From positions 992,001 to 1,056,000 of the forward strand of contig NZ_CP054918.1 of NCBI RefSeq assembly GCF_013364195.1: a DNA stretch of 64,000 nt, in the 5' to 3' direction. Made by a program: the position numbers and the translations under genes. Shown here piece by piece: positions 6,480 through 32,213 of the stretch (the first letter of the stretch is position 1; each line of letters begins with the position of its first letter). The notes beneath the pieces were generated by a model. It worked only from the letters and a program-made list of their open reading frames with translations, ran no database searches and had not been told where the DNA came from. The stretch comes from Streptomyces sp. NA04227 (lineage in GTDB: Bacteria; Actinomycetota; Actinomycetes; Streptomycetales; Streptomycetaceae).

Positions 6480-7082
6480 ATGGCAGGGTTCAGAAGCCTC
6501 GCAAGACAGGTGCGCGATCCGCGCAACGACCTTGCCCTGCGCAGGTATTCACTGCGCAAGTGCCTGGAGCGGTTCGCTCCTTACGGCCACCGGGCCACCT
6601 GGGACCACCTGTGCTCCCGGTCCGGGTTCGGCCCCGAGGACCGCTCCCCCGACCCCCGGCGGCTGCTCTCCGCGCTGGACGAGCTGGAGGCCGCCCGAGC
6701 CGTCTGGCTCGCCTACGAGGACGACTTCGCCGAGCGCCGCAGGCGCGAGAAGCACGAGGGACTGCGCCGCCCGTCCAGCGTGGACGACTGGCACCGGCTC
6801 ACCTGGGGCGGTTTCGGCGTCGCCTGGTGCGACGACCCCGCCGTGCACCCCCACGATCCGCTCGCCGTCGTACTCGGCCGGATCATCGACGCCCTGGAAC
6901 GCCACCCCGGCGCGAGCTGCCCGGTCTGCGAGGGACACAGCCTGCTCTGGCGGAACGACCTGGCTCACGAGCCCTCCTGCGCCCCCGTGTGCACGGACTG
7001 CGGCATCGTCGTGCCACGCCCGGTACTGACCGACGCGGCCGTGAGCCGCGCCTGGCACGCCCGGGTACTCGTCTCGGCCTGA
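6480..7082 (+). CDS. Conserved hypothetical protein with a C-terminal zinc-ribbon-like cysteine set
   Basis: A 200-residue protein with no recognised domain. The N-terminal ~100 residues are helical, charged and rich in Arg. The C-terminal part has C147-x2-C150 and C171-x2-C174, plus C167, a spacing that would suit a small zinc ribbon. There is no signal peptide or membrane segment. A GGAGGG 8 bp upstream supports ATG 6480. It precedes the repeat-split gene on the same strand with a 143-bp gap. Function unknown. Confidence 0.65.
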   Translation: MAGFRSLARQVRDPRNDLALRRYSLRKCLERFAPYGHRATWDHLCSRSGFGPEDRSPDPRRLLSALDELEAARAVWLAYEDDFAERRRREKHEGLRRPSSVDDWHRLTWGGFGVAWCDDPAVHPHDPLAVVLGRIIDALERHPGASCPVCEGHSLLWRNDLAHEPSCAPVCTDCGIVVPRPVLTDAAVSRAWHARVLVSA

Positions 7083-7225
7083 GCGACCAACCGCGACGGG
7101 ACGCCGTTGGCACAACTCCTCATGCCCCTACGCCCGCACACCCCCTCGTCCACCCGCCGGACGCCGCTCGTTAAGGTGGCCGCTCGGCACGGCGCGGCCA
7201 CCGCGCGGCAGACAAAGGGGGCGGG

Positions 7226-9105
7226 GTGTCGGGCGAGCGGACGGGCTGGATCCGGGTGCCGGTGGGCGAGGACGCGGACCGCTGGACCACCCGCCGCGCC
7301 TCCCGCACGGTCCTGTTCGTCGTGCACAACGTCACGTCCGCGACCCGGCTCCTCGACGTACTGCCGCTGTTCCGCGACGATCTGCGCGTCCAGCTCCTGC
7401 TGACCTGCACCGGCTCCTCCCCGTTCCGGAGCGGTACGGACGAACTGCTCGCCGCCCTCGAACTCCCCGTACTGAGCTGGGAGCAGGCCTGCGCGACCGA
7501 AGTGGACCTGGTCGTCACCGCCAGTTTCGGCGGCCAACTCCACTGCCTTCAAGGGCCTGTTGTCGCCCTCTCACACGGCATTGGATACAATAAGAGGCTG
7601 GCCGCGCCGGGAGCCGGGAGCCGGGAGCCGGGAGCCGGGAGCCGGGAGCCGGGAGCCGGGAGCCGGGAGCCGAATCGGCCGTGGCGGGGCCGGTGTTCGG
7701 GCTGTCGCCCGAGTGGAATCTGGCCGGGGGCAAGCCGGTCGCGGACGTCATGGTGCTGTCCCACCCCGAGCAGCAGGAGCGCCTCGCGCACTACGGCGGC
7801 GGGGGCGGGCCGCGCGGTGTACTCGCGGGTGACCCCTGTTTCGACCGGATGCTCGCCGCGCGCCGGTACCGGGAGCGGTACCGCAGGGCACTGGGCGTGC
7901 GTCACGGCCAGCGGCTCGTCGTACTCAACTCCACCTGGAATCCCGAGTCGTTGTTCGGCGACGGGGCGGGAACCGATCCGGAGCGGGCGCCCGGCCACCA
8001 CCACCTCCGTGAACCGGGAAACGACGTACTGCGCAGGCTGCTCGCGCGGCTTCCGGCCCAACTGCCGGTCGACGACTACCGGTTGGCGGCCGTCCTGCAT
8101 CCCAACATCTGGCACGGTCACGGCCCGGGCCAGGTGCGGACCTGGCTGGACTCGGCCCGCCGCGCCGGTCTCACCCTGATCGATCCGCTCCACGACTGGC
8201 GCCAGGCGGTGCTCGCCGCGGACGCGGTCATCGGCGACTTCGGCTCGGTCAGCTACTACGCGGCGGCCCTCGGCACCCCCGTACTGCTCGCCGCGACGGG
8301 CGCCGACCGTCTCGATCCGCTCTCCCCCGTCGCCCGCTTCGTCCGCACGGCACCGCGGCTCGACCCGGCGGCTCCCCTGGGCGCCCAACTCGACGCGCTG
8401 ATCGGGGCCCAGCAGGGGCCCCGGCCCGGACCCGATGAGCCCGGGTTCGGTGTGCCCGGGCCCACCGAACCCGGGCGCACCGAACCGGGGCCCGCCGAGC
8501 TGACGACCTCCGACCCCGGCCGGTCGGCGTTCCTGCTGCGGCGGCTCTTCTACGAACTCATCGGCATCGGCGAGCCCGGCAGCCCCGCCCACCTCGATCC
8601 GCTGCCGATGCCCGCGTACCAACCCCCTTGCCATCTGGCGCCGTTGGCGGTGCGGACGACGCGGTGTGCGGGCACCGCGGTGGAGATACGGCGTTACGGC
8701 GATTCCCCCTTCGCGCCGCCGACGGGCGGGGTGGCGCATCTGGCCGTGCACGAGGACACCCTCGATCCGGAGGCGCTGGCCCTGGCCGATGTGCTCTTCC
8801 GCGAGGGCGCGGCGGACGATCCGGTGCTCGGCACACCCGAGGAGTGGACGGCGGAGGCGCTCGCCCGGCATCCGCACGCGGCACTCGCGGCCCGGGTCAC
8901 CGGCCCGGCCGAGTGCGTGGCGCGGCTCAGGAGCGGCGATCTCTACGACCTGGTGGGCGAGCCGCGCGGGGCCGACCCGGCGGCCGCCGCCTCGGCGCTG
9001 CTCGGCTGGCTGGCCGAAGGCGGCAAGCCGGACGAGCTCCTGGCCGGGGGACTGACCGTGGTGACCGACGCCGCGAGGTACGCGGTACGGGTCACCCGGC
9101 GCTGA
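7226..9105 (+). CDS. Glycerophosphotransferase-like (GT-B) protein, frame interrupted by a 7-bp repeat tract
   Basis: Two well-composed frames abut at a heptanucleotide tract. The first starts at GTG 7226 (AAAGGGGG ribosome binding site) and encodes a Rossmann-like half (TVLFVVHNVTSATRLLDVLP, then VVALSHGIGYNK). The second runs from about 7673 to 9105 and encodes the partner half (VFGLSPEW, VLSHPEQQERL, AGDPCFDR, ADAVIGDFGSVSYYAAALGTP), resembling the CDP-glycerol glycerophosphotransferase/epimerase fold. With the present 9.57 repeats the first frame runs out of phase to a stop at 8177-8179 (317 residues). Adding one repeat or removing two would fuse both halves into a ~625-residue protein. 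The second half has no stop codon in ~475 codons, so decay, if any, is recent. GTG 7681, behind SD-like GGGAG units, could permit separate translation. Its 3' end overlaps the convergent STAND gene by 14 bp. Confidence 0.6.
7606..7672 (+). repeat. Heptanucleotide microsatellite (GCCGGGA)9 plus GCCG
   Basis: Nine perfect GCCGGGA units occupy 7606-7668, followed by GCCG at 7669-7672. Seven is not a multiple of three, and the tract is open in all six frames (Ala-Gly-Ser-Arg-Glu-Pro-Gly on the sense strand), so each unit gained or lost shifts the downstream frame without creating a stop inside the tract. It lies between the two conserved halves of the flanking gene. Confidence 0.95.
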
Positions 9106-11212
9106 GGCAGCGCTCGCGCAGCCTGCGCACCCGGTCGGCGTGCGGGCTCGCGTTCTCCTCGCCGAGGATCCGCAGCGCACGGTCGAGGAGCGGCAGCGCC
9201 GCCGCCAAGTCCTCGGCTTCCAGGTGGACTTCGCCGAGATCGGTGAGCGTGCGCGCGGCGTTGTAGGCCTCCTTCTGCGTCTCCTCGAAGAAGACCAGGG
9301 CCCCCGAGAGGAAGCGGGCGGCCTCGTCGAAGCGGCCGAGCCCGCGCAGGGCACGACCCCGGTGGCGCAGGAGCAGCGCCCGCCCGCGCGGAGCGTCCTC
9401 GAAACCCTCGTCGCCCTCGGCGAGTTGGGCGAGTTCCTCGTCGGCCCGCTCGAAGAGCGCGTACGCCTCGTCCCAGTTCCACTGGGACAGACGCAGCAGG
9501 CCGAGGCACTCCAGGGCGGTGGCGCGTCCTCGCCGGTGGCCGTCGGCCGCCTCCGCCTCCTCGGCGAGCCGGAGCTGGCGCTCGGCCTCCTGGTGCTGGC
9601 CCAACTCGACAAGGGCGTTGCCGAGTTGGGTGCACGCCCGGCCCTCGATTCGGGTGCCCGGATAAAGCGCACCGGCGGCCCGTGCCGCCGCCCGGAGCGC
9701 GGGCAGCAGTTCGTCGGTCGCGCCCGCCTTGAGCTGAACGGCCCACTGCGCCTCGCCGAGTTGGCGCGCGGACTCCGCATCGCCGCTCTGCGCGGCCGCG
9801 AGGGTCGCCTGCACCAGGTTCCTGCGTTCGGCGATCAGGGCGGCCACGGCCTCGCCCAGCCGCGTGCGGGGCCCGGCGTCAAGTGAGGTGTACAGCGGCC
9901 CGAGCCACCAGCGCTGCGGCAGCGCCGCGCGGTCCGCGCGCACCGCGAACTCCAGGTACCAGCGGACGGTACGGGCCAGTGCGGCGGCACAGGCCACCAC
10001 TCCGTCCTCGGCGGCCGCCTCCCGCTCGGCCCGGGCCCGGACCGCCGCCCGGTACCGGTACCGGCCGTCGTCCGTGGTCAACAGCAGCCCGCGGGCGGCG
10101 AGTTCGGCCAGCGCGTCAGCGGCCCGCGCCTCCTCGATTTCGGCCGTGTGCGCGGCGACGGCGGGCCCGAATCCGGGCCACTCCCACAGGGCCATCAGCC
10201 GGAAGACCCGCAGCGCGGTCGCGTCGAGCCCTGAGGTTCCGGCCTCGACGGCGTAGTCCACGGGTTCCCGGCCCGCCCCGGAGAGCGCGAGGTCCGGCTC
10301 GGACAGCCGTGGGGCGAGGGCACGCAGCGCGAACGGGGACCCGCCGCAACGTTCCAGTACGGCGGGCAGCACGGCCGCGGCCCCGGCGACGGTCTGCCGG
10401 TCGGTGAGTTCGGTCAGGAGCCGGACCGCGTCACGTTCCACGAGCGGGCCCACCGACAGGGGCACGGCGTCGAGTTGGGCGAGGCGCTCGCGGGCGACGA
10501 CGACCGTGAAGGCGTACGGTGCCGCGGTGATCAGGGGCCGTACCTGTGCCGCCGTTGCGGCGTGGTCCAGGACGACCAACAGGCGGCGGCTGCCGATGAG
10601 TTCGCGCAGCAAGGCGGTCCTGTCCTCGGTGGCGGGCGGCATCTGCGCCGCGGCCACGCCGAGTTGCCCCAGAAGGATCCGGGCCGCCGCGGCCGGTGCC
10701 AGTGCGGCGCCGGTCCCGCCCTGGCCGCACAGGTCCACGTACAACTGCCCGTCCGGGAAGGCCTTTTCGTTGCTGTGTCCGTAGTGCGCCGCGAGTGCGC
10801 TGGTGCCCATGCCGGCCGCGCCGTGCAGCAGGGCGACCCGCGGACGGCCGTCGCTCTTGCGTCCTGCCTCCCGGGCCAGCTCGCGCAGGAGTTCCCGGCG
10901 GTCGGTGAAGAACCGTACGGACGGCGGGAGTTCGCGGGGTGTGCGGGTCACCGTGGCGCCCTGTGGGCTGCTGCCGATCCAGGCCCGCACCGCCGACGCG
11001 TGCCGGGGATCCCGCGCGGCGGCCTCGGCCAGTTCCCTGGCGAGTTGCTCCCGCTCGGCGGCGTCCCGGGGCGCGGGCACCGCGCGGCCGGTCACCCGCC
11101 GGGCCAGGGCCCCCGCCGATTCCCAGGCGCTCTTGCCCACCTCGCTCGCCATCCCCGCGGCGACCAAGCTCAGCGTCCCGGTCAGAGGGCCCCACAGCAT
11201 CGGATCGAACAT
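9092..11212 (-). CDS. STAND/NB-ARC-like ATPase with TPR repeats, degenerate Walker A
   Basis: A 706-residue protein in three parts: a short N-terminal region, an NTPase module and about 350 residues of helical TPR-like repeats (LGNALVELGQHQEAERQLRLAEEAE and similar). The P-loop at residues 131-138 reads GAAGMGTS, with Thr137 where Lys is expected. The Walker B strand LLVVLDHA (211-218) keeps the Asp. NB-ARC/STAND proteins are signalling switches, many of them in defence or SARP-type regulation; without the Lys, ATP hydrolysis is doubtful and a scaffold role is plausible. GGGGAG 6 bp upstream supports ATG 11212. It is divergent from the RNA ligase gene and convergent with the repeat-split gene. 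Confidence 0.75.
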   Translation of the reverse strand: MFDPMLWGPLTGTLSLVAAGMASEVGKSAWESAGALARRVTGRAVPAPRDAAEREQLARELAEAAARDPRHASAVRAWIGSSPQGATVTRTPRELPPSVRFFTDRRELLRELAREAGRKSDGRPRVALLHGAAGMGTSALAAHYGHSNEKAFPDGQLYVDLCGQGGTGAALAPAAAARILLGQLGVAAAQMPPATEDRTALLRELIGSRRLLVVLDHAATAAQVRPLITAAPYAFTVVVARERLAQLDAVPLSVGPLVERDAVRLLTELTDRQTVAGAAAVLPAVLERCGGSPFALRALAPRLSEPDLALSGAGREPVDYAVEAGTSGLDATALRVFRLMALWEWPGFGPAVAAHTAEIEEARAADALAELAARGLLLTTDDGRYRYRAAVRARAEREAAAEDGVVACAAALARTVRWYLEFAVRADRAALPQRWWLGPLYTSLDAGPRTRLGEAVAALIAERRNLVQATLAAAQSGDAESARQLGEAQWAVQLKAGATDELLPALRAAARAAGALYPGTRIEGRACTQLGNALVELGQHQEAERQLRLAEEAEAADGHRRGRATALECLGLLRLSQWNWDEAYALFERADEELAQLAEGDEGFEDAPRGRALLLRHRGRALRGLGRFDEAARFLSGALVFFEETQKEAYNAARTLTDLGEVHLEAEDLAAALPLLDRALRILGEENASPHADRVRRLRERCLSAG

Positions 11213-11513
11213 CGCGGACTCCCCCTGCACCTGGCCCGTCACGACCGGGGCGCCGCCCGGCCCCGGCGTCGCGAGCACTCACCTCGACGACCACGCCGAT
11301 CCTAACGGGGCGGGAACGGAGCGCGTCGGCCGGTGCACCGAGCGCGACGATTCCGGGGCTCCTGCCCACCCGCCGTGACCGGGCACCGTCGGCGCCGCGC
11401 GAGGTTAGCAGCCACATATTCGCTGGCCAACTCCTATTGGCCGCACCAGAGTTGGGTGCATGACCAGCAACCCAACGGTCCCCCGGACCAGCTGAAGGAG
11501 CCAGGAGCACACC
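11213..11513. other. Divergent promoter region between STAND and RNA ligase genes
   Basis: No gene is supported in these 301 bp. The right half (11401-11480) is clearly less GC-rich than its surroundings and holds two inverted repeats described separately, so it is probably the promoter region for the ligase gene. GGAG motifs just before 11514 set the ligase start. Confidence 0.5.
11425..11476. promoter_or_regulatory. Two inverted repeats upstream of the RNA ligase
   Basis: GGCCAA-N6-TTGGCC at 11425-11442 and GTTGGGT-N12-ACCCAAC at 11451-11476 are both perfect inverted repeats, 40-90 bp before the ligase ATG. Either could be a protein operator or an mRNA hairpin. Neither matches a site I can name. 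Confidence 0.4.
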
Positions 11514-16451: not shown

Positions 16452-17126
<675 letters not shown>

Positions 17127-32033: not shown

Positions 32034-32123
32034 AGGATCTCGCGGAGTGAACGGTCGAAGTGGACGGACGGAGTGGGCGGAAGGTCCCCGCGCCCGCCGG
32101 AGCACGGGGACCCGCCCTTCCTC

Positions 32124-32213
32124 TGTGCCACCTGCACCACCTGTGCCACCTGCGCCACCTGCGCCACCTGCGCCACCTGTGCAACCGGCGTCACCGGCGT
32201 CACCCGTCGCACC
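32124..32213. repeat. Degenerate 9-bp tandem repeat (TGYGCCACC), about 10 copies
   Basis: Ten consecutive 9-bp units related to TGCGCCACC fill 32124-32213, with three adjacent perfect copies at 32151-32177 and more divergent ones at the right end. The repeat starts 6 bp after the lipase stop codon, so it would form the 3' UTR of that mRNA. Plus-strand translation gives a Pro-Ala-Pro string without a credible gene. Confidence 0.85.

Follow-up and report, generated by a model that had tools for sequence, protein, structure and literature searches.

Switching of a surface-polymer enzyme by a heptanucleotide tract is already known from neuO, and switching by a tract in Streptomyces from pglX. According to the accessible parts of the source (PMC13001214), neuO of Escherichia coli K1 encodes a polysialic acid O-acetyltransferase and carries a tract of AAGACTC units, with 3-53 copies in 64 genomes; the tract lies in the coding sequence, its slippage sets the frame, and the enzyme modifies a surface polymer and affects phage killing. 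The actinomycete gene described here shares with neuO a heptanucleotide tract in the coding sequence, a varying copy number and, probably, the setting of the frame by slippage. However, the neuO tract is situated in the 5' region of a prophage-borne gene of a pathogen with another enzyme activity (same parts of PMC13001214), whereas the tract of the actinomycete gene lies about 127 codons inside a chromosomal GT-B gene, and its units vary in spelling and length. In the Pgl system of Streptomyces coelicolor, phase varies with the length of a G tract in pglX and is linked to phages (accessible parts of PMC4365076); the preliminary description of our locus, which knew of no repeat-based switch established in Streptomyces, therefore needs correction on this point. 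As far as this source goes, Pgl differs in that its tract is a homopolymer and the gene, part of a defence system, encodes a DNA methyltransferase, with no heptanucleotide and no glycan enzyme involved. HMW1A and other loci of Haemophilus influenzae likewise vary in phase through heptanucleotide tracts (see PMC8262952, PMC2651432). They are an adhesin and other loci of a pathogen. The heptameric repeats of Xanthomonas and Nostoc are not of this locus type in what the excerpts of PMC4692102 describe, and a glycoprotein serves as phage receptor in S. coelicolor (excerpts of PMC5882110). The accessible sections of the GeneTack paper (PMC3711429) and of a repeat review (PMC7015867) contain nothing on this locus, and our search of the open-licence PMC literature retrieved no paper that describes a phase switch of the heptanucleotide or TagF-like kind for any actinomycete, Streptomyces included. 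As far as this literature shows, the conservation across actinomycete groups, the internal position of the tract, the turnover of its non-triplet spelling, the family-wide pattern and the tract-bound sequence element are new.

Our analysis suggests that a gene for a TagF-like GT-B enzyme in a Streptomyces genome is very probably a contingency locus that is under selection and works by slipped-strand mispairing. Such mispairing would lead to gain or loss of 7-bp units in the tract: in-frame alleles would give the full-length protein (ON), out-of-frame alleles a product truncated after an HG-GYNK motif (OFF), and the TagF-like GT-B enzyme would thereby change between both states. The locus lies in a window of 64 kb, which is the whole stretch of DNA analysed, and is arranged as follows:

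7226..7605, + strand: N-terminal gene part (~127 codons), which covers the beginning of the GT-B N domain and ends in the HGIGYNK motif (open frame and orthologues)
7606..7672, + strand: frame-setting heptanucleotide tract, GCCGGGA x 9.57 (Tandem Repeats Finder and orthologous tracts)
7673..9105, + strand: C-terminal gene part, rest of the GT-B fold and C-terminal domain (open frame and homologues)

The tract is a perfect short tandem repeat in coding sequence with a unit that is not a multiple of three. It comprises nine GCCGGGA units followed by GCCG (period 7, 9.6 copies, 100% match), and its score of 134 is the highest of the 42 Tandem Repeats Finder rows in the window. These nine units plus four bases indeed split the gene, as first described: the frame from GTG 7226 crosses the tract and ends off-frame at 8179, and the downstream half is in a different frame at the present copy number, open from 7603 or earlier up to 9105. 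It follows from the coordinates that 10.57 or 7.57 copies, i.e. the gain of one unit or the loss of two that had been proposed, would join both halves; the window sequence is an OFF allele. Its source genome is a single contig of 7.89 Mb, in which a search with window positions 6800-8600 returned only two weak matches of the tract elsewhere, both degenerate. Runs of GCCGGGA x 3 were found at 119 or more loci of many bacteria in a repeat scan, so the unit itself is not rare; what is rare is its place. Long GCCGGGA arrays in unrelated bacteria include L008, L041 and L122 (Treponema MAGs) as well as L009, L017, L022, L048 and L053 (contig ends), and several of them run into contig ends. In other tandem arrays of the window, at 17085-17120 (TCGGCG x 6) and 32123-32204 (CTGCGCCAC x 9), the unit length is a multiple of three. 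The tract had also been said to be open in every frame. This is true of its three sense frames, and all 35 unit kinds seen in orthologues are open in sense and 32 of 35 in antisense; but since 95% of the units obtained by shuffling these kinds stay open as well, the property means little, and we ruled it out as a sign of selection.

Orthologues of the gene are widespread. The C half was matched in 54 of 150 relatives and in 806 database proteins. Out of 392 genomes from the genus, 149 had a match to the N half (E <= 1e-15), many of these matches being paralogues, and a class-wide sample gave a match at E <= 1e-20 in 28 of 345 genomes. In clade A orthologues, the N part is 62-77% identical. From the best matches we picked 113 distinct loci with both halves, duplicates removed, a set that is ranked by similarity to the window gene and is not a random sample. 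The G-Y-x-K motif is in place in 110 of them; L145, L227 and L240 were set aside, of which L145 and L227 do have tracts. Counting three or more units as a tract (a 6-bp run of 3.0 copies in L149 was scored as none), we found a tract at exactly this position in 87 of the 110 loci, with a period of 7 (n=78), 10 (n=6) or 8 (n=3), 27 unit spellings and 3.3 to 33.7 copies (median 7.7); many orthologues come from fragmented assemblies, where the tract length may be wrong, and L131 has an N gap inside the tract. In a combined set of 130 loci, which omits two with a short C part (L076, L223), two that lack the N part (L259, L268) and six already represented (L247, L249, L258, L261, L264, L269), 102 loci have a tract at the same codon position, with 35 unit sequences of 7, 8 or 10 bp and no unit length that is a multiple of three. 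These numbers change little when loci derived from the repeat scan, six in the smaller and five in the combined set, are left out (81 of 104 and 97 of 125). Among the 119 scan loci listed, L013, L015, L025, L061, L076 and L108 are this gene with the tract in place, and L035, L065 and L094 are homologues with a tract near the 5' end. In the class-wide sample, members of other family groups carry differently spelled tracts (GAAACCG, AAACAGG, CAGGAGT or 8-bp units) at the same place; overall, the tracts are spread over four family groups (f1, f19, f20 and f48) and Catenulispora. Such a diversity of spellings and unit lengths indicates that the tract has retained non-triplet units although their letters were replaced over time.

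Directly upstream of the tract, the gene contains a short element that is tied to it:

7586..7594, + strand: TACAATAAG element within the Y-N-K codons, with a -10-like TACAAT, a TAA in the +2 frame and a tract-tied T at 7591

Its usual form, TAYAMTAAR, occurs once in the window on both strands taken together. The codon before the Lys of G-Y-x-K ends in T at 100 of 102 tract loci (the exceptions are L197 and L224) vs 3 of 28 tractless loci; the smaller set gives 85 of 87 vs 3 of 23, and without the repeat-scan loci the figures are 95 of 97 for the combined set and 79 of 81 vs 3 of 23 for the smaller one. Of 15 phylogenetically independent pairs differing in the tract, about 12 have the T with the tract, none shows the opposite and about 3 show no difference (sign test, p ~0.0005). 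In 85 of 87 loci, the tract begins 7-15 bases past the codon before this Lys. One could argue that the conserved T merely provides a TAA stop in the +2 frame, which blocks out-of-frame readers, and has nothing to do with a promoter; this would concern the element only, not the switch. The TAA is indeed present in every tract allele that has the T, but neighbouring bases which a stop would not need are held too, and we consider this explanation improbable: where an Arg follows the element, its codon is AGR in all 51 such clade A tract alleles (of 72), compared to 4% AGR in C halves, GGA is enriched before the element in clade A, and Thr at the element is encoded 41 times by ACT and never by ACA, the commoner of the two in C halves. 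The missing ACA and the uniform AGR imply a constraint on DNA or RNA letters rather than codon rarity.

A TANNNT hexamer as in -10 boxes is present: the window has TACAAT, and those tract loci that carry the T have TAYAMT or TACAGT. A two-hexamer scan of positions 7200-7760 detected no promoter-like site with a -35 hexamer 16-18 bp upstream, and a classical two-hexamer promoter was therefore rejected; a conserved TTG of clade A sits 21 bp off, where the window has GTT. The T, the A-rich bases that follow and the distance to the tract all agree with a -10 hexamer. The favoured reading of TAYAMTAAR is a -10-like promoter, as yet an unproven candidate. Three further clade A codons, at -16, -12 and -8 before GYxK, are rare and held at the nucleotide level (CAA/GAA, AT-rich, and TTG in 68 of 72); at -8, the window has GTT. 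Unlike the T, they are the top three outliers in tractless alleles too. CAACT and AGTTG, 17 bp apart, could form a dyad. The TACACTAAG element of L148 (G009:C1, about 8251490), which directly precedes a 13-unit tract, is interrupted by ~0.9 kb of inserted DNA that looks IS-like by eye. A link between GCCGGGA arrays in other genes and an upstream TANNNT was not obvious by eye among the repeat-scan loci.

The comparison of tract and frame among orthologues, which the preliminary description had proposed, reveals both states: the 102 tract alleles comprise 58 in frame and 44 out of frame, whereas 27 of 28 tractless alleles are in frame and one is out. Without the five repeat-scan loci, the tract alleles number 57 in and 40 out (n=97). 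In-frame alleles exceed the one third expected of a random frame (p 1.4e-6), and it seems that selection or culture favours ON, or that some tracts are near-fixed. A phylogeny of the C halves (FastTree) implies 33 or more switches between the two frame states. Copy number differs among close relatives with both frames represented. The tract surroundings of the sister pair L137 (in frame) and L172 (out of frame) are identical save one GGTCGCC unit, at a dS of 0.12 in the C half; the tracts of L127/L181 and of L191/L196, the latter with a 10-bp unit, are likewise one unit apart, with one allele in frame and one out.

Most out-of-frame alleles do not look like damaged genes. Among clade A tract alleles, the C half extends over 431-500 codons in 28 of the 30 that are out of frame, similar to the in-frame ones (430-490 codons in 41 of 42, the remaining one being cut by a contig end); none of the in-frame alleles ends early. 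Selection on the gene is purifying: among the 45 pairs listed of 256, dN/dS was 0.03-0.26 for the N part and 0.08-0.34 for the C half, and listed pairs with both members out of frame gave C-half values of 0.15 (L168/L172), 0.28 (L237/L239) and 0.29 (L151/L202). Decayed downstream halves in orthologues, which had been named as an argument against a switch, are thus not the rule, but they do occur: two out-of-frame clade A tract alleles end early, L076 after 79 and L217 after 252 codons, as do both tractless out-of-frame clade A loci, L204 and L223, where the frame of L223 (in the 110-locus set) rests on a far-downstream match and is unreliable. As these four show, some out-of-frame copies, with the tract or after its loss, are decaying, but most are not. 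In L204, the T element is present, the tract is gone and a stop lies 259 codons into the C half; it is possibly a switch that was locked off by tract collapse and is now decaying. The database proteins include off-frame N fragments with tract peptides. Two of these, P0128 and P0133, differ in tract length; with an identity of 87% in an alignment of 171 residues that counts gaps, they are not clearly from one species.

The preliminary description had also considered that an assembly error accounts for the present copy number or that we are dealing with a recent pseudogene; both are very unlikely. GC-rich repeats are hard to assemble, as the N gap in L131 and the arrays that run into contig ends at several repeat-scan loci illustrate, and the four early-ending loci are indeed out of frame. 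Yet out-of-frame tracts recur in 44 of 102 loci and, in genomes of up to four contigs, in 14 of 31 tract alleles, with the other 17 in frame (contig counts were typed by hand and limited to such genomes). Full-length C halves and constrained out-of-frame pairs also speak against this explanation, and so does the conservation of the tract itself, which a decaying gene would not need. Equally hard to sustain is the idea that the tract is a tolerated spacer of drifting length and the frame changes are harmful accidents without an evolved switch. The in-frame excess and the tractless in-frame alleles would agree with it, but a spacer in coding sequence would be expected to change by whole triplets, and no tract unit is a multiple of three although the spellings changed many times; moreover, the T element is held mostly while the tract is present, and paralogues gained non-triplet tracts at another place. 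Finally, a two-product locus, in which the C half would also be made alone by restart or from an internal promoter and the tract would switch long and short forms, could be suggested by the -10-like element, which directly precedes the tract in almost every locus that has one, and by the GGGAG within each GCCGGGA unit, but has little to recommend it. The formerly proposed restart at GTG 7681 is not conserved: among clade A tract alleles, an ATG, GTG or TTG lies between tract and FGL in 9 of the 30 that are out of frame and in 13 of the 42 that are in frame, so we rejected restart after the tract. GGGAG is found in 2 of 35 unit kinds, albeit one of them the commonest (27 of 87 loci), and a Shine-Dalgarno role of the unit was rejected on this ground. 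Moreover, the C half alone would be devoid of the first part of the GT-B N domain.

Judged from the sequences, a selected contingency locus explains the data better than assembly error or decay, and an on/off switch in soil bacteria is more probable than a damaged gene. The view of the locus as a phase-variation switch of a glycosyltransferase-like gene gains from the orthologous tracts in both states, the mostly undecayed out-of-frame alleles and the predicted fold. A model of a full-length homologue adopts a GT-B fold (range 24-429) like that of TagF and UDP-GlcNAc 2-epimerases. The loop over the tract, residues 127-151, has a pLDDT below 50. We propose that this loop of the enzyme is disordered and that the length of an in-frame tract would therefore be tolerated there. 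Identity of the protein to the teichoic acid polymerases TagF and TarL (PDB 3l7k, 8va1; PF04464) is 13%. The window halves gave no match to PF04464 (Glyphos_transf), and none of 10 proteins, 9 of them A1 members, reached its curated cut-off of 22.1 bits (best P0059, 20.9 bits); at E up to 1, 13 of 30 A1 members matched, again with P0059 as the best (E 2e-4). A PDB sequence search with a profile yielded 0 matches. With moderate certainty, we assign the predicted product to TagF-like GT-B proteins and consider it likely to be a surface-polymer enzyme. We know of no phase tract in TagF. Downstream, the gene faces a conserved neighbour:

9092..11278, - strand: convergent gene for an AAA (STAND-like; STAND/AfsR-like) and TPR protein (Pfam/NCBIfam)

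This neighbour adjoins the gene in 35 of the 42 loci tested and may or may not be functionally part of the locus. PADLOC gave no match for neighbour and protein beyond one at E 0.0067, which was deemed chance, and we rejected membership of either in a defence system. Five further window ORFs that we looked for were all missing from the 42 loci, which cover only ~2 kb before and ~4 kb after the matched N part, too little to reach the RNA ligase gene.

The genome of the window contains a second 7-bp tract, outside the window and close to a paralogue: ACCGCGA x 13 (G000:C1, about 2963267-2963358; L002:451-542) directly follows the ATG of a leader frame whose stop overlaps the GTG of the paralogue, an arrangement that looks like a switch through translational coupling. 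Seven relatives of this paralogue, 65-75% identical to it (L276, L277, L278, L279, L281, L283 and L295), have 7-bp tracts in or before their 5' part. Twelve of 20 paralogue regions have at least four units of 7 or 8 bp, one has a 9-bp run and seven have none, one of these being L293, a third copy in the genome of the window. Further homologues with a 7- or 8-bp tract at the 5' end are L272, L273, L284, L285, L288, L290, L291, L035 and L065, and the tract of L284 consists of AACGCGGG x 31. By eye, a TAGNNT ends 4-13 bases before the 5' tract in L273, L284, L285, L288, L291 and L065, and a TAAGAT in L035, but TAGNNT is absent there in L276, L277, L278, L279, L283, L295 and L002 and farther away in L272. 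This lends the promoter reading weak support, since promoters are expected at the 5' ends of genes anyway.

A tentative, rather doubtful extension of these observations is that the TagF-like surface-polymer family of actinomycetes consists of independently switching loci, with non-triplet tracts in an internal loop or at the 5' end, and that the internal ones are coupled to the -10-like element 7-15 bp upstream as an embedded promoter which promotes tract instability or controls the switch. If so, a promoter would be kept in coding sequence for the sake of a hypermutable tract. The association of TAYAMTAAR with the tract singles out one synonymous base, whose effect on slippage or expression can be measured. 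For the contingency locus itself, we infer that slippage is frequent within a culture and that OFF means no activity. By analogy with known systems and from the predicted fold, the product may build or decorate a surface polymer, the switching of which could help against phages or similar threats, with a possible role in phage or predator evasion.

Switching of this kind has mostly been studied in host-bound pathogens. If the locus does switch, this would account for a number of the hypothetical proteins of the family that are short or 'partial' (among the 120 matches listed) and might provide a genetic marker for phage resistance in industrial strains. It would also make it testable whether soil bacteria use contingency loci against phages. 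Populations of a free-living, antibiotic-producing genus would then be mixtures of cells with different envelopes.
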